A stretch of DNA of 43,188 nucleotides, taken from NCBI GenBank assembly GCA_945871445.1, contig CAMBWI010000016.1, positions 1 to 43,188 of the forward strand. The letters are read 5' to 3'. The position numbers were made by a program, and so were the translations under genes. The notes beneath the pieces were generated by a model. The model saw only the letters and a list, made by a program, of their open reading frames with translations, was not told the DNA's origin and did no database searches. The DNA comes from Singulisphaera sp. GP187 (GTDB lineage: Bacteria; Planctomycetota; Phycisphaerae; Phycisphaerales; SM1A02). Shown one piece after another: positions 14,707 to 32,201 of this stretch (positions are counted from its first letter, which is position 1; the number at the start of each line of letters is the position of its first letter).

Positions 14707-17479
14707 TTCCGCCACCTAGCGGCCGAACCGTGATCGTGCGATAGCACTCCAGCACGTCGCCCTCGCGGATGTCGTCGTATCCATTGATCTTCATACCGCA
14801 TTCGTTTCCAGAGCGAACTTCCTTAGCATCTTCTTTGAATCGCTTCAGTTGCTCGAGTCGGCGATCTTTTTCGATCACGATTCCATCTCTCGTCACGCGG
14901 ATTTGTGCATTTCGTTCGATGACTCCGTCTGTGACATAACAACCTGCAATTGCACCGACCTTCGTGATCTTGAAGACCGCACGAACATCTGCGTGTCCAA
15001 GGACCTGAAGCTTGATCTCTGGTTCCAAGAGTCCGCGAACGGCCTTGTCCATGTCATCGGTCAATTGATAAATCACTTCGTAGAGTCGAATATCAATCTT
15101 GCGAACTTCGGCCAACTGCCGAGACTTTGCGTTACTCGTGACATTAAAGCCCACGATGACTGCGCCCGTCGTTGCTGCAAGTTCGACATCGCTTTCGTTG
15201 ATTCCGCCAACGCCCGCGTGCTTGATCGAGATGCTGACATCTTCTGCTTTAATGCGCCCAAGAACAACTTTGAGCGTCTCGACGGAACCTTGCACATCGC
15301 CTTTGACGATCAATGGCAATTCCTTCTTCTTCGATTTCGCCATGGTCTCGAAAATGTTGTCGAGCGTCACCTTTGGTGCGGAAAGTTCGCGATCTCGTTC
15401 GAATGCACGGCGTTCAATCGCAGCTTGTTCGGCTGCTGCGAGACTGTCGACGACATAGAACTTGTCGCCAGCATCTGGAAGCAAATCAATACCAGAAATT
15501 GCGACAGTTGTTGTTGGATCTGCGCTTGTGATGCGCTCGTTGCGATCGCTCACGATGTCGCGGACACGACCGAATGATCGCCCGACCACCACGAAATCGC
15601 CTCGTTTAAGACATCCTTCTTGCACCAACAATTGTGCGACAGGTCCACGACCTTCTTCCATGCGTGCTTCAAGCACGCTTCCTTGAGCGTGACCTCCCCA
15701 ATCAGCCTTCAAGTCCAAGATATCTGCTTGCAGCGCGATGGTTTCCAAAAGTTCTGGCAGACCAGTTCCTTTGAGTCCGCTGACAAGCGCGACTTCGACT
15801 GAACCTCCCCATGGAACGGGATTCAAATCATTCTTGGCAAGTTCGCCATAAATGCGTTGCAAATTCTTCTCGTCGAACTCTGGACGATCAATCTTGTTGA
15901 GAGCGACAATCACGGAAACCTTCGCAGCTTTAATGTGATTGATGCTTTCAATGGTCTGTGGCATAAGCCCGTCAACTGCATCGATGACCAAGATGACGAT
16001 GTCGGTCACCTTTGCACCGCGCGCACGCATCGCCGTGAATGCTTCGTGACCAGGCGTATCGATAAAAGTGATCATTCGTTGCTGATCGCCAGCCTTGATT
16101 TCAACCTGAAATGCTCGAGTGGATTGCGTGATTCCGCCCGCTTCACCTGCAGCAACATTCGTGCTACGGATTCGGTCCAAGAGTGTTGTCTTCCCGTGAT
16201 CAACATGTCCAAGAATCGTGACAACTGCTGGACGAGAACGTTCGTCAGTTCGGGTTCGCGCTGCAAATCGTTCTTCGATTTCATCCGATACAGTCTTCGC
16301 TTCGTCGATTTCGATTTCAATATTGAATGCCATCATCAATTCAATTGATTGATCCGCATCGAGCGCTGTATTGATTGTGATTGGATTTCCTGCAAGCAGA
16401 GATTTCTTCATAATCTCCGAGACCTTCACTCCGGTCAACTCAGAAAGTTCCTTCACCGAAACTGGATTGGGAACATGCACAGGTCCTTGCGGCTTGGCGG
16501 CAACCGATCGACCTTTAGGAGCGGCCGAAGGTCTTGTGGAAGTTCGGTGCTTGCGAAAGAAACCATCAGCTTGCCCAATTCGACTTGCGCGTTCTTCTAT
16601 ATCTTTGTTCGAACGAGACCCATCACGCGATGGATCGGCTCGACCAGTTCGCCCTGAATCGGATGGACGACGCTTCGATGGCGGCAGAGCGCCTCGACGA
16701 TTTGTTGGATCACCCGCACCCGCACCCGCACCCGCACCAGCACCAGTACCGACACTTGGTCCGCCCGTACGACCCATCGGAGGACGATTCGCGCCAAATT
16801 GACCGCCCGTTCGAGGCCGCGGCGCAGCAATATTGTCAGCAGCTTCGACTCGAATAACTTTCGGCCCCGAAAGGCTTGTTTTTGTCGGTTGATCAAGCAC
16901 TTGAGATGTTGGACGAGCTCGAATAGGTCGAGTTGGAACATTCATCGGCGCTGGAACAAATGGTTTTGGTGGCGGAACAACAACGACAGGCTTGGGAGGA
17001 AGAACAGGAGCCAATGGCTTTGGTGGTGCAACTGGAGGATCGATTGCAACAGAAACATCTTTTAATTGAACTTTCGCCTTCACTGGCGAAGTCGTTTGAG
17101 TTGTAGTTTCTATCGCAGGAATTTGTGGTTGAAGTGTCGCTGCGCTTGCAGAAGCTGTGACTTCAGATTTTGTTTCTGATTGCGATTGACCAGTTGATGA
17201 TTCTCCCGCAGCTTTCTTGCGCTTCGGTGCAGCCTTCTGAACACGCTCTCGAATTTGAACAACATCAACACTCGCGGCAGTCTCTGTTCCCGTCCTGGAT
17301 CCTGAATTTCCAAACCATTGTTTGATTGTCTCTGCCAATCCGAGTGAGATCGATGCTTGCGGCGTCGTCACATCTTCAATGCCTTCGCTCAAGCACTTCG
17401 CGATGATGTCTTTTGTATGGATACCGAGTTCTTTCGCAACCAGCGTTAATCGGATTTTCTTGACTGTCTTAGTTGCCAC
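14699..17479 (-). CDS. infB: Translation initiation factor IF-2
   Basis: 926-aa GTPase that brings initiator tRNA to the 30S subunit and promotes subunit joining. An IF2_N module sits at 8-57. A long Ala/Pro/Lys/Arg-rich linker (about 60-320) follows, including a short Gly-Ala run. A second IF2_N is at about 335-395. The G domain has G1 GHVDHGKT (about 423-430), 'DTPGHEAF' and 'NKID', followed by domains II-IV. Start is GTG 17479 with TTGGAG 7 nt upstream. It is between nusA (81 nt upstream) and rbfA (overlap), the usual bacterial order but without ylxR, ylxQ or rimP. The linker DNA contains a hexanucleotide tract at 16711-16746. Confidence 0.97.
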
Positions 17480-23811: not shown

Positions 23812-24435
23812 ATGAATTCGCCTGTCCTTCGCCCGCCCATCACCGTGTACTGCGCCAGCGCACGCGGAATCAACCCAGAGTTTCTCGCTGCTGCACGAAT
23901 GTTTGGCGAAGCGCTTGGCGAATCGGGGATGAATTTGGTGTATGGCGGCGGCGGAATTGGATTGATGGGTGAAGTGGCTCGAAGCGCGCAAAAATCTGGA
24001 GCGCATGTCACTGGCATTATCACAGATCAATTTCTTCACCTCGAACAAGGTTGGACTGGCTGCGACGAAATGATTGTGGTCGATTCGATGCGAGAAAGAA
24101 AGCGTCAACTTGAGGAGCGCGGCGCAGGATTCGCAATTTTGGCCGGAGGTCTTGGAACATGGGAAGAGTTTTTCGAAACATTCGTAGGCCGCGTCATCGG
24201 GCGACATTCCAAACCAATTGGACTACTCAACACAAATGGATTTGCAGATCCACTTTGGGAACTTGTCAGTCATGGAGTCGATCATGGATTCGTTCGCAGC
24301 GCCGCTCGAGAATTGATGTGGATGGAATCGGATCCTCACACACTTGCCAAGCGATTGCATGTCGCGATGACAACTCTCGCTGCAGAAGTTCACGACCCGA
24401 AGATTTTTCTTCCAATGCACGGACCGGAAGTATGA
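23812..24435 (+). CDS. LOG-family (TIGR00730) nucleoside-5'-monophosphate phosphoribohydrolase-like protein
   Basis: 207-aa Rossmann-fold protein of the LOG/lysine-decarboxylase-like family. 'CASARGINPEF', 'NLVYGGGGIGLMGEVARSA', 'RKRQLEERGAGFAILAGGLGTWEEFFE' (two halves of the active site) and 'KPIGLLNTNGF' match. The canonical PGGxGTxxE has Ala for Pro here (AGGLGTWEE). Members release ribose-5-phosphate from AMP or cytokinin ribotides; many bacterial ones are of unknown purpose. ATG 23812 is at the predicted transcription start. The stop overlaps an ATG (ATGA) that begins the mini-ORF relay leading into lpxI. Confidence 0.88.
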   Translation: MNSPVLRPPITVYCASARGINPEFLAAARMFGEALGESGMNLVYGGGGIGLMGEVARSAQKSGAHVTGIITDQFLHLEQGWTGCDEMIVVDSMRERKRQLEERGAGFAILAGGLGTWEEFFETFVGRVIGRHSKPIGLLNTNGFADPLWELVSHGVDHGFVRSAARELMWMESDPHTLAKRLHVAMTTLAAEVHDPKIFLPMHGPEV

Positions 24436-24478
24436 ACGGAAAACAAGTATGAACGGAAAACAAGAATGAAGAGCGAAC
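24428..24478 (+). repeat. 17-bp tandem duplication forming an ATGA relay between LOG and lpxI
   Basis: AAGTATGAACGGAAAAC occurs twice head to tail (24428-24444, 24445-24461); 24462-24478 is a degenerate third copy that contains the lpxI start. Because 17 is not a multiple of 3, each copy makes a new stop/start overlap. The LOG stop overlaps ATG 24432. That opens a 6-codon ORF (MNGKQV) whose stop overlaps ATG 24449, which opens another (MNGKQE) whose stop overlaps the lpxI ATG 24466. Each copy also has GGA 8 nt before the next ATG as a weak SD. Confidence 0.85.
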
Positions 24479-28998: not shown

Positions 28999-29481
28999 AT
29001 GCGTATTCGCCGAACAGTTCACGAACCACGAATCGAATTGATCCCCCTGATCGACGTGATGATGTTCTTGCTTTCGTTTTTTATCTATTCTCAGGCTCTT
29101 GCCGTGCGCATAAGTGTTGTGCCTATGGAATTAAGAAAATTTCAAAGTGCACAAGCTGCAAAGCCAGTGCCCGCTGCGACGATCTCGATCACGCTTGATG
29201 GAAAACTTTATTACAACCGAGTTCCCTGCGAATTGTCAGATATTGCTGGCCGCGTCGCAGAATCGAAGTCAGAAGATACCAAGACGGTGGTGTATATCGC
29301 CGTTGCAGATGGTCAAGGAACAGTTGACCGTGCGCCAATTATGCAAAGTGTGTGGGACAAGTTGCGTGGATGCGGACTTCAAGTCAATTTCGTCGGTCGA
29401 CCAATTGATACTGATGAGAAAAACCCTGCAACTACGCCGACGACACCAACTGCGCCTACTGCGCCAACGACCAAGCCGTGA
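28999..29481 (+). CDS. exbD: ExbD/TolR-family proton-channel subunit
   Basis: 160-aa inner-membrane protein. One N-terminal helix (about 14-36) in 'IELIPLIDVMMFLLSFFIYSQ' carries the conserved proton-conducting Asp (ID-V). The periplasmic domain (about 55-138) follows, then a Thr/Pro/Ala tail (TTPTTPTAPTAPTTKP). It works with an ExbB/TolQ/MotA-like channel to energise TonB-type transducers. The tail is longer and more Pro-rich than typical ExbD. Its stop overlaps the tonB-like GTG by 4 nt. An ExbB partner is not in this window, which is unusual. Confidence 0.88.
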   Translation: MRIRRTVHEPRIELIPLIDVMMFLLSFFIYSQALAVRISVVPMELRKFQSAQAAKPVPAATISITLDGKLYYNRVPCELSDIAGRVAESKSEDTKTVVYIAVADGQGTVDRAPIMQSVWDKLRGCGLQVNFVGRPIDTDEKNPATTPTTPTAPTAPTTKP

Positions 29482-30836
29482 CTGAAGCGCGCCAACAAAA
29501 CGCACCACTCTATTTTGGAGCTGTCATTGCATTGATTCTTCATTTGTTGGTTGCAATTCCCGTCCTCAGCGGCGCGTGGGGAGTCGGTGGGGATAGCCCC
29601 CTTCATTCTTCGCTCGACGGAAAGAGCGAGAGCGAAAAACGACAACGAGAAAGACTTGAAGAAGCGCTCAGAAAAGCAAAGGAAGTTCAACCAGAAGATG
29701 AGAATGAAGTCATTCCAGGATTGGATAATGGCTCCGACCAAGGCATGGTTTGGATTGGATACGACGAATATAAGGAACAACTTGCGCAACACGCGGAAGT
29801 CGAGCAGGCTGCATTTACCGACAAGGAAGTTGCTGGTGGTGGCGCACTTGCTCAGGGTGATTTGAAGCAACTTCCTGCAGACGCTCCTGGGCAACAAGCT
29901 GAGGCGTCGCAACCCACTGTTCCACCACCCACTGCTCAAAATTCGCCACCAACTCCACCAACTCCTGCAACTCCGCAAACAATTGCGACACCACAAACCC
30001 CCGAGACTCCGCAGTCACCCACAACGCCACCAACTCCCGCGGAGTCGAAACCAATTGAAGCTGTGCGAGCAGTGAGTCCAGTTGAAACTCCCCAACCAAG
30101 TGATATGAAAGGTGTCGCTCCGATGCCAGTTGAAACGGTGACTCTTCCGACTGCGCCCATTGGTCCCGATCCAAATCTGCCGCCTGCGATTGAGCGAGCA
30201 GAAATCAAGCCAGATCCATCGAAGGAAGCACCACCAACTGCAGAAGTGCAACCGATGAATACTCCAGAACCGATCCCGCGTCCTGAAGTTCCAAAAGCGG
30301 AACAACCTCCACAAGTTGAGATTCCAACGACTCCAAATTTGAAGCCCCCATCACCGCAAACACCTCCATCGCCACCAACACCGCAGACGCCGCCGAATCC
30401 AAATTCTGGCGCGAATGGTGCGACTTCACCAGTCGTATCGCCAGTCACTGGTCCGCCTGGAGCTCCTGGAAAAGGAACTGCGACTGGCGATAAATCTGAT
30501 CGCGAATCAGATGCGACAAGTATTGTGGATGTCCCTCAATCTTTCTGGCGCACTGGAAAGCCACTTGCACGAAAAGGCCTTGAAATCAAGACTAAAAAGC
30601 CAGAGTTGCCAATTCTGACTCGGCTCACCACTTCTCCTGGAAATCCAGTTTGTGAAGTTCTCTTCGGCAAGAATGGCGTGCCAGTCTCTTGCAAAATTCT
30701 TCAATCGAGTGGCTATGCAGATATCGATGGACCTGTGACGGATGCGCTGTATCGCTGGCGTGCGAAAGGTTCGCAACTGGAAAAACTTGCGCCTGGAAAA
30801 ACATTGACATTTCGAATTCGCTTCATTCTGAACTGA
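29478..30836 (+). CDS. TonB-like energy transducer with very long Pro-rich linker
   Basis: 452-aa protein: cytoplasmic start, one helix (about 12-32), then an unusually long (about 300 aa) Pro/Thr/Glu-rich linker with tandem-like PxTPPxP segments. The C-terminal globular part (about 365-452) resembles TonB: 'CEVLFGKNGVPVSCKILQSSGYADIDGPVTDALYRWR' over its strands. This linker would span the periplasm with ease. GTG start at 29478 overlaps the exbD stop (GTGA), which supports pairing. The DNA following is the palindromic repeat region, with no obvious terminator. TonB family by topology, linker and weak C-terminal match. Confidence 0.75.
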   Translation: MTEARQQNAPLYFGAVIALILHLLVAIPVLSGAWGVGGDSPLHSSLDGKSESEKRQRERLEEALRKAKEVQPEDENEVIPGLDNGSDQGMVWIGYDEYKEQLAQHAEVEQAAFTDKEVAGGGALAQGDLKQLPADAPGQQAEASQPTVPPPTAQNSPPTPPTPATPQTIATPQTPETPQSPTTPPTPAESKPIEAVRAVSPVETPQPSDMKGVAPMPVETVTLPTAPIGPDPNLPPAIERAEIKPDPSKEAPPTAEVQPMNTPEPIPRPEVPKAEQPPQVEIPTTPNLKPPSPQTPPSPPTPQTPPNPNSGANGATSPVVSPVTGPPGAPGKGTATGDKSDRESDATSIVDVPQSFWRTGKPLARKGLEIKTKKPELPILTRLTTSPGNPVCEVLFGKNGVPVSCKILQSSGYADIDGPVTDALYRWRAKGSQLEKLAPGKTLTFRIRFILN

Positions 30837-30950
30837 GACGCTCGCAGCTCTCTTCTGAGTCAGCGAACTGTGCGAACAAATTGAATCGACTCAAATGTGG
30901 ATTGTGCAGATTTTTGGCGAATCAAATTCTCGCTGAACCGTGTTTCAGAT
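30837..30950. other. Spacer between tonB-like and the repeat region
   Basis: I see no gene, terminator or promoter here. It separates the tonB-like stop from the first repeat copy; the whole gene-free stretch to surE is 544 nt and the rest is the duplicated palindrome. Confidence 0.6.
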
Positions 30951-31319
30951 CAGTCGCGCATCGGCTTGCGTGCCCAGCCGCTGGAAAGTTCTCTCAAAGC
31001 AAGTTCCGCAGGCCCTCCGACGGCGCTTGCAATAAAATTTCGCAAACCGGAACGTGTCGGTCGCCGAGGACTGTTTGAGCCCCAAGAGGACTTTCCACGG
31101 CTGCTCACTTATGCGATTCTGCGGCTGTTTCCGTGGCTGTGTCAGTCGCGCATCGGCTTGCGTGCCCAGCCGCTGGAAAGTTCTCTCGGGCGAGTTCCGC
31201 AGGCCCTCCGACGGCACTTGCAAATAAATTTCGCAAATCTGATCGTGTCGGTCGCCGAGGACTGTTTGAGCCCCGAGAGGACTTTCCACGGCTGCTCACT
31301 TATGCGATTCTGCGGCTGT
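30951..31319. repeat. Two tandem ~177-bp copies of a palindromic element
   Basis: Copy 1 (30951-31128) and copy 2 (31143-31319) are about 90% identical with a period of 191-192 bp, separated by a 14-bp spacer. Both begin CAGTCGCGCATCGGCTTGCG and end GCGATTCTGCGGCTGT. Each copy is an imperfect palindrome: in copy 2, AGCCGCTGGAAAGTTCTC... (31168-31190) pairs with the segment 31272-31293, with one bulge and one G-T pair, and the interior also folds (CCTCCGACGGCAC with GTGTCGGTCGCCGAGG, with bulges). A third, short start (TCAGTCGCGC) follows at about 31361 after further GATTCCGCA repeats. No coding potential credible on either strand. Candidate MITE/BIME-like repeat or structured RNA. Confidence 0.85.
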
Positions 31320-31380
31320 ATCCGTTGCTGATTCCGCAGCTGATTCCGCAACTGTCTCAGTCGCGCTTCGATAGCTCACG

Positions 31381-32169
31381 CTATGTGTGCAATCGCTTCT
31401 GCCACGCAGCGAGAGACGCATCATCGGTCAAGTCGTACCAAAGTGGCGTGATCGTGACATTGCGCTCCATGAGCGCCTCAACATCGCTCCCCTGCGCAGT
31501 ATGAAAAAACTCCATGCCATTTCCACACGGCCAGTAATACGCTCTGCCCTCAGGAGATTCGCGTCGCTCATGCCGATCAACTCCAGCAGATGTATTCATT
31601 CGCACCACCCGTAGCGCTGGCATTGCGGCATCTGCCCTTTCTGTGCGCGGAACATTGATCGAAATCACACGGTGGGCATCAAGCGGATGTTCGATGACTT
31701 GATCAATCGCAGTGCGCGCAATTTCTGCCGCACGTTGCCAGTGCGTGTGTGCAGTTTCGCCGATGTGCAGACTGACGGCGATTGCGGGAACTCCAAGAAA
31801 CGCGGCCTCGATCGCGGCTGCGATCGTTCCTGAATAGATGATGTTGATACCCACATTTGCCCCACTATTCATTCCACTGATGACCAAATCAGGCTTGGAA
31901 CCAGCGCCAAATCGTTCCGCCCAGATCGTTCGAAGTCCAAGTTTCACGCAGTCTGCAGGCGTTCCATCGATGGAAGTTCCAAACATGTCATCGTTCACTT
32001 GAAAATTCCGCGTCATCAACGGACGATGAAAAGTGATGCCATGACTCATTGCAGATTGAACACCCGCTGGTGCAATCACCACAACTTCGCCGAGTGAACG
32101 AATCGCCATATACAGAGCGGCGATTCCTGGTGCGGTTATTCCATCATCGTTTGTAAGGAGAATTTTCAT
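31381..32169 (-). CDS. surE: 5'/3'-nucleotidase SurE
   Basis: 262-aa metal-dependent phosphatase of (deoxy)nucleoside monophosphates, involved in stress survival. The N-terminus 'MKILLTNDDGITAPGI' carries the metal-binding Asp pair; 'GTPADCVKLGL' and 'ISGMNSGANVGINIIYSGTIAAAIEAAFLG' (over the next strands) complete the active site. ATG 32169 is preferred over an upstream TTG 32190 because it gives the canonical N-terminus. Both lack an SD. It follows the GT2 gene on the same strand after 45 nt. On the other side is the repeat region; the end of the gene has a small ATAGC/GCTAT hairpin. Confidence 0.94.
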   Translation of the reverse strand: MKILLTNDDGITAPGIAALYMAIRSLGEVVVIAPAGVQSAMSHGITFHRPLMTRNFQVNDDMFGTSIDGTPADCVKLGLRTIWAERFGAGSKPDLVISGMNSGANVGINIIYSGTIAAAIEAAFLGVPAIAVSLHIGETAHTHWQRAAEIARTAIDQVIEHPLDAHRVISINVPRTERADAAMPALRVVRMNTSAGVDRHERRESPEGRAYYWPCGNGMEFFHTAQGSDVEALMERNVTITPLWYDLTDDASLAAWQKRLHT

Positions 32170-32201
32170 AGGTGTGTCAACAGAGTTCAATTGATCAAAG
32201 A

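Follow-up and report, generated by a model that had tools for sequence, protein, structure and literature searches.

The window, by which we mean the whole 43,188-nt stretch of planctomycete DNA analysed here, contains a gap flanked by a convergent tonB-like ORF and surE, and this gap houses two head-to-tail copies of a repeat unit (30950-31141 and 31142-31330) that are 93% alike. The features of the locus are as follows:

29478-30836, + strand: tonB-like ORF, pointing toward the repeats; no Pfam match; located 3' of an ExbD gene
30916-30949, + strand: left module, GAATCAAATTCTCGCT...TTTCAGA, common to many other copies (flank listing, 70/102 copies)
30950-31141, + strand: copy 1 of the repeat unit, comprising the hairpin core and a pair of 12-bp units (Tandem Repeats Finder, genome search)
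30975-31103, + strand: hairpin core of copy 1, from one P1 arm to the other, core degraded (alignments A1 and A2)
30999-31011, + strand: left motif half of copy 1, GCAAGTTCCGCAG, with one change relative to the consensus
31066-31080, + strand: right motif half of copy 1, GAGGACTGTTTGAGC
31116-31139, + strand: two 12-bp tandem units between the copies
31142-31330, + strand: copy 2 of the repeat unit (Tandem Repeats Finder, genome search)
31167-31294, + strand: hairpin core of copy 2, scoring 142.5 bits against covariance model R1, which includes this copy in its training set
31190-31202, + strand: left motif half of copy 2, GCGAGTTCCGCAG, exact
31257-31271, + strand: right motif half of copy 2, GAGGACTGTTTGAGC, exact
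31307-31354, + strand: four 12-bp tandem units that begin within copy 2 and extend beyond it
31381-32190, - strand: surE, pointing toward the repeats; Pfam PF01975, E 9.1e-57

Tandem Repeats Finder set the register of the pair (30950-31330, period 191, 2.0 copies, 93% matches, score 671), and a repeat search of the window placed the copies in that register too, at spacings of 191 and 192, confirming the first-pass annotation of the locus as tandem copies about 90% identical and 191-192 bp apart. Its description of each copy as foldable with outer arms of 20-odd bp also holds: the arms are ~24 bp long, and relative to shuffled sequences the + strand folds with z of -3.45 for copy 1 and -6.29 for copy 2 (-3.26 and -4.52 on the - strand). 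The arms of copy 2 are those of the family consensus, CTCTCGGGCGAG facing GAGCCCCGAGAG. Copy 1 carries CTCTCAAAGCAAG facing GAGCCCCAAGAG (AAAG vs. CCCAAG) and reads GCAAGTT in its core where the family has GCGAGTT; as it departs from the consensus arm pairing, copy 1 loses pairs, and the arm changes, whose compensatory nature the annotation had left unclear, are disruptive. ORFs running through the repeat, such as the 144-aa frame at 30897-31331, were judged spurious. Each window copy is trailed by 12-bp tandem units resembling ATTCTGCGGCTG. A single sigma-70-like match (9 of 12) occurs in the repeat region, on the - strand at 31116-31145, with 0.1 expected from shuffles; elsewhere in the window, short tandem repeats with periods of 17 bp and 6 bp lie at 24428-24470 and 16711-16744.

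The pair belongs to a genome-wide repeat family, one of the possibilities raised at first pass. When the window's genome (G000, a 2.26-Mb draft that is 82% complete) was searched with copy 1 as query, matches at E up to 10 numbered 107, and 53 of these are near-full (E up to 2e-29); this latter total, which includes copies cut by contig ends, is a lower bound, with at least three more divergent copies present (L320, L322, and L323). The near-full copies are spread over 40 sites, so the unit is not unique to this locus, and the repeat is not the remnant of a coding element. At 13 of the 40 sites there are two copies, in every case in the same orientation and 189-286 bp apart, and in 8 of the 12 tandem pairs that were aligned both members are mutually closest relatives. 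This supports the proposed local amplification of copies; for the window pair the closest relationship holds from one member only, the mutual identity being 0.926 vs. 0.919 and 0.932 for the best other copies, and we consider that this pair probably arose by local duplication.

Many of the short matches in G000 fall on the 12-bp unit; such tandem units (ATCCGYGGCTGT) trail many copies, and longer arrays are found elsewhere in the genome (e.g. G000:C6:16056-16175). The left modules are interchangeable and of at least two kinds, GAATCAAATTCTCGCT...TTTCAG in most listed copies and GACGGCGCACACGCGAAACGATG... in G016. A second, unrelated long palindrome, GAAATGGGCAACC...GTGTCG...CGACAC...GGTTGCCCATTTC, adjoins element copies and recurs at sites of G011 (L073 and L101 on G011:C10, L071 on G011:C5, and L075 on G011:C47).

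The element is a long hairpin that consists of an outer helix (P1, ~20-25 bp), a core forming a two-sided internal loop, an inner helix (P3), and a variable loop. The two parts of the core, GCGAGUUCCGCAG on one side and GAGGACUGUYUGAGC on the other, are nearly invariant: among 102 copies from six genomes, pairwise identity is 0.994 and 0.957 for the core halves, 0.951 and 0.943 for the P1 arms, and 0.70-0.73 for the 5' flank, the apical loop, and the 12-bp units; both motif halves are exact in 89 of the 102 copies (42/51 in G000). The fold that we infer would proceed from P1 through an internal loop with facing GA steps, a short GUUCC/GGAC helix, and a second internal loop to P3 and the variable loop. 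We take the facing GA steps to resemble tandem sheared G-A pairs.

Where conservation is concentrated bears on whether the element is an ordinary MITE derived from an insertion sequence, its hairpin arms being the terminal repeats. The long inverted arms, the lack of an internal gene, and the dispersal of copies are what such an origin would produce; conservation, however, peaks in the centre and not at the ends, and the arms vary freely between lineages whereas the core does not. The ends of the element are undefined, and no clear signal of target-site duplication was obtained from 61 copies, words shared between the 60-nt flanks being only slightly longer than those shared with one random other flank (7.3 vs. 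6.0). Bacterial MITEs such as Correia/NEMIS, ERIC, and RUP are described, in the part of PMC2229807 available to us, as small non-autonomous repeats with stem-loops formed from paired ends, a description that suits the element; it differs from them in that its centre is conserved in place of its ends, and neither defined ends nor a target duplication was found. We consider a MITE origin quite unlikely.

Covariation in the helices emerges only once divergent members are included. The 102 near-identical copies (RNAalifold) have two-sided change in just 1 of 32 pairs, and alignment A2 gave covariation not above shuffles (1 pair, with 439/500 shuffles as high; score, 45/500), because near-identical copies cannot show covariation. 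Among 36 divergent matches (34 distinct rows), two-sided change was seen in 34 of 43 pairs, cells with such change numbered 216 vs. 62.1 in shuffles (0/500 as high), and 89.3% of cells were paired vs. 33-40% with partners slid, in an alignment (A3) that was fitted by model R1 and so leans toward structure, and that includes near-duplicate rows. A model-free check, in which the P1 arms of 37 non-redundant elements from several phyla were compared without R1, agreed: the 5' arm scored on average 34.0 against its own 3' arm and 9.4 against the arms of other elements, the arm-matching total was 1257.5 vs. a permuted maximum of 549.5, and the own score exceeded the 95th percentile of cross scores in 34 of the 37. 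For P3, own and cross scores were 13.8 and 3.1 (21 elements). The structural conservation on which the first-pass reading hinged is thus present among divergent relatives. Eight folded examples gave z from -2.2 to -10.5; the Lachnospiraceae example folds weakly (z -2.19, 7/200 shuffles as good), and the Myxococcales example did not form the expected interior fold.

Of 117 elements, 103 fold better as the core-bearing strand than as the complementary one (24/25 of the main planctomycete type and 79/92 of the others). Counts of G-T vs. A-C in P1 favour the same strand in the main planctomycete type (52 vs. 23) and show no excess in elements outside that group (148 vs. 153), so the single-strand reading rests on the folding difference together with covariation. 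The sense strand is likely to be the functional single strand, whether as RNA or as ssDNA.

Within the genus, presence of the element varies between close relatives. A DNA search recovered it in 9 of 61 genomes including its own, all 9 from the same genus (G014 weakly). Covariance model R1, built from 43 aligned cores over 127 positions, detected the element in 16 of 19 genus genomes (E up to 0.1; 1 to 105 matches per genome when both strands of the near-palindrome are counted); under stricter filters and E up to 0.01, 10 of 121 family genomes were positive, five of which belong to other genera, in a search that misses G010, which was positive at E up to 0.1. The exact core pattern occurs in the window's genome only among 392 sampled Planctomycetota (1/392). 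SurE is present in 18 of the 19 genus genomes, and the tonB-like end was also located in 15. Four of these 15 tonB-surE gaps contain the element and measure 544 (two copies), 400, 912, and 216 bp; the remaining 11 are without it, and in 10 of those 11 relatives the gap is 42 bp or less (eight gaps of 38, 42, 23, 18, 27, 27, 10, and 11 bp, and two genomes with no gap, the genes overlapping by their computed ends). The tonB-surE gap of G003 (L115) holds 648 bp of unrelated sequence and no element. G009 and G012 likewise have copies next to surE, close to a contig end.

The first-pass annotation envisaged a planctomycete family, a scope that proves too narrow: the same core is multicopy in other bacterial groups. 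A core-pattern scan of genome contigs returned at least 114 stretches; among the 80 matches listed with titles, in which MAG labels may be wrong, 37 are from Coriobacteriia (genera, families, or class), 22 from Planctomycetota, 5 from other Actinobacteria, 4 from Lachnospiraceae, 3 from Latescibacterota, 2 each from Myxococcales and Omnitrophota, and 1 each from Eisenbacteria, Dormiibacterota, Chloroflexi, Betaproteobacteria, and one further bacterium (L224), whose arms pair poorly. The Betaproteobacteria match is probably a misbinned contig, judging from its resemblance to planctomycete L143. Exact cores number 29 in the complete genome of Adlercreutzia hattorii (NZ_AP022829.1), 23 in A. caecimuris B7, 28 in a strain of A. 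equolifaciens, 12 in the Latescibacterota chromosome CP070677.1, 9 in the Myxococcales MAG PRO3, and 6 in a Lachnospiraceae MAG; Senegalimassilia anaerobia has a single one, so that six of the seven foreign genomes tested are multicopy, and the reversed-pattern control gave 0 in all seven.

Matching sites with and without the element were found at loci of Coriobacteriia. The sites that vary in presence are, by our assignment, the grpE-dnaJ gap, a gap that is filled by two copies in inverted arrangement, and an ORF of the radical-SAM type in which a copy lies in frame; copies also occupy what we take to be operon gaps, plsY-gpsA and grpE-dnaJ. In-frame insertions were observed in relatives only: one copy lies in frame in a 561-aa ORF (L176), and among TrmD proteins from 13 Coriobacteriia genomes, 8 have one or more exact motif halves, in frame and in the same loop, and 5 have none, one of these being a fragment in which the loop is still visible. 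A different pattern is seen at a site 5' of a hemN-like gene in three Coriobacteriia, where the core is letter-identical and P1 and P3 are replaced by other paired sequences. In A. hattorii, partial copies are repeated in frame (L326 and L327), a ferredoxin-like ORF contains four left halves, the last with its own right half, and trmD contains one full and one half element.

The gene context of the sites raises the possibility of a cis-acting RNA at mRNA 3' ends or in operon gaps, the core of which would bind a conserved RNA-binding protein or nuclease and control mRNA stability or processing, with selection acting at each site. Context was classified with a simple longest-ORF caller. The six-genome count covers sites with a gene on both sides, and ORFs overlapping the hairpin core by >60 nt were removed before it; the earlier per-copy count labels such ORFs as 'over'. 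Of the 65 sites counted in the six genus genomes, 48 are flanked by convergent genes, 14 by tandem genes, and 3 by divergent genes, vs. 8 convergent, 57 tandem, and 16 divergent among 81 control gene pairs at the same loci (Fisher p 6e-16, a value that overstates independence, the sites of these related genomes being partly the same by descent). In G000 alone 22 of 33 sites are convergent, and the window background is 6 convergent among 31 adjacent ORF pairs. The better folding of the sense strand and the hemN-like 5' site, which keeps its core while both helices are replaced, would also suit a cis-acting RNA. Against it stand the copies in operon gaps, in frame within coding sequences, and in the three divergent gaps; the variable presence at matching sites; and the genomes outside the planctomycetes, where a convergent bias is not clear: Adlercreutzia (21 sites: 1 convergent, 8 tandem, 5 divergent, 6 overlapping an ORF, and one with no gene on one side), Latescibacterota (12: 4, 3, 1, and 4 overlapping an ORF), and Myxococcales (9: 2, 2, 0, and 5 overlapping an ORF). 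We consider a cis-acting RNA rather unlikely for the family; the convergent-gap bias in the subgroup and the in-place turnover of helices are the observations that speak for it.

Location between convergent genes would likewise be expected of bidirectional intrinsic terminators. No terminator-like site with a T run was found in 30780-31440 (0.7 expected in shuffles), however, and relatives carry copies within operons and coding regions; a terminator function is extremely improbable.

The comparison with BIMEs made at first pass is not supported. Like the element, REP/BIME repeats mobilized by a RAYT (Y1 tyrosine transposase) would be palindromic, intergenic, high in copy number, and often clustered. 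Yet the Y1 transposase domain (PF01797) was found in 0 of 19 genus genomes, with the control positive in 5 of 14 known genomes, and this absence leads us to reject a REP/BIME identity for the genus. REPs are 20-40 bp long with a tetranucleotide tag, GTAG or CGTC, and the CGTC repeats seem to be without a dedicated transposase, according to the sections of PMC3733652 at hand; the core here is far longer, at ~127 nt, and carries no consistent tag, with GTAG/CTAC near the hairpin base in 7 of 102 copies and CGTC/GACG in 16 of 102. Movement by a RAYT is, in our estimation, very improbable.

Other candidates for a mover fared no better. Reverse-transcriptase domains (PF00078, RVT_1) occur in 6 of 19 genus genomes (G000, at G000:C25:340-981, and G015, G016, G011, G013, and G008); RVT_1 was not found in the copy-rich G012, G007, and G009. 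Among foreign genomes it is present in 8 of 16, and the Latescibacterota chromosome (G160), although rich in copies, gave no match; draft assemblies could hide some. Presence of the enzyme does not track copy number, and retro-mobility through a reverse transcriptase of the host genome is not supported. Phage carriage was rejected on finding 0 matches to the exact core pattern in viral contigs, a pattern that elements with other arms or spacings would escape. A longer, gene-bearing version was likewise rejected: in 20 stretches around extra left halves, no right half lay at a gene-sized distance within 1.5 kb. Among them were full copies that the earlier pattern or thresholds had missed (L320, which has one change, L322, L323, and L338), copies whose right half is mutated or absent, matches to coding sequence, and, in two cases, masked bases; at L326 and L327 the further right or left halves belong to neighbouring copies. 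No transposase or autonomous partner was found in the searches for Y1 in the genus and for reverse transcriptase in the genus and foreign genomes.

The conserved internal loops between covarying helices are reminiscent of structured RNAs, and no family in Rfam 15 matches the element: neither the window nor 15 foreign loci gave a gathering-score match, four divergent loci gave none at E up to 1, and a lax search of 30880-31400 returned only isrG at 14.9 bits (cut-off 100) and RRE at 8.3 bits (cut-off 104). A description of the element was not met in the open-licence papers searched, including passages of PMC8040213 and PMC12306157, which is weak evidence of novelty. One core string also occurs in wheat papers.

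In behaviour, the element is a small dispersed palindromic kind that resembles the Rickettsia palindromic elements (RPE), which in the portions of PMC2229807 and PMC10969869 available to us are palindromes of 105-146 bp, intergenic and also fused in frame within conserved protein genes. The two share dispersed palindromes and in-frame insertion in protein genes (here in relatives, in trmD and the 561-aa ORF); unlike RPE, described from Rickettsia and compared here by description only, the element has a cross-phylum internal core and covarying arms. It is not a RAYT-type REP/BIME, it is not confined to planctomycetes, and its unusual feature is an internal core that is kept across phyla while both helices change in step.

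We favour, as a fairly probable reading, that the family consists of non-autonomous mobile palindromic elements whose folded strand is recognized by a putative factor; it is preferred because of the patchy distribution, the bursts, the presence and absence at matching sites, and the in-frame insertions. On this reading a putative trans-acting factor would recognize the core of the folded single strand, be it RNA or the ssDNA of that strand, and spread the element; bursts in separate lineages would give rise to lineage-specific arms; and copies would persist where they do little harm, which in the window's subgroup may be mainly at 3'-3' gene junctions. In the window, a copy would have entered the tonB-surE gap in an ancestor of the subgroup and would then have duplicated locally, probably by exchange or slippage between 12-bp units, and copy 1 would now be decaying. 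Sites common to several species at which the core is intact and the arms are altered weigh against mobility, and a selected cis-acting element fits them equally. The failure to find a mover or a target-site duplication, the convergent-gap bias that is not clear in three foreign genomes, and the exact core in just 1 of 392 sampled Planctomycetota also count against the favoured reading. A broader proposal, that the mobile elements form one class propagated as a folded single strand (RNA or ssDNA) and recognized through a single, nearly invariant bipartite core, and that this class has reached at least five phyla by a route needing no RAYT in this genus and no resident reverse transcriptase in several carriers, the arms being free to drift as long as they remain paired, is possible but more doubtful than not.

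As a rule, small palindromic repeats are confined to one lineage, and it is their ends that define them. In this family, planctomycetes and gut Coriobacteriia have a 28-nt internal core in common, around which both helices are rewritten in matched fashion, and this matched rewriting around a kept core points to one recognition event common to distant bacteria. The in-frame trmD copies suggest that the element is tolerated by an essential enzyme, and the core provides a sharp sequence handle for finding the factor that recognizes it.
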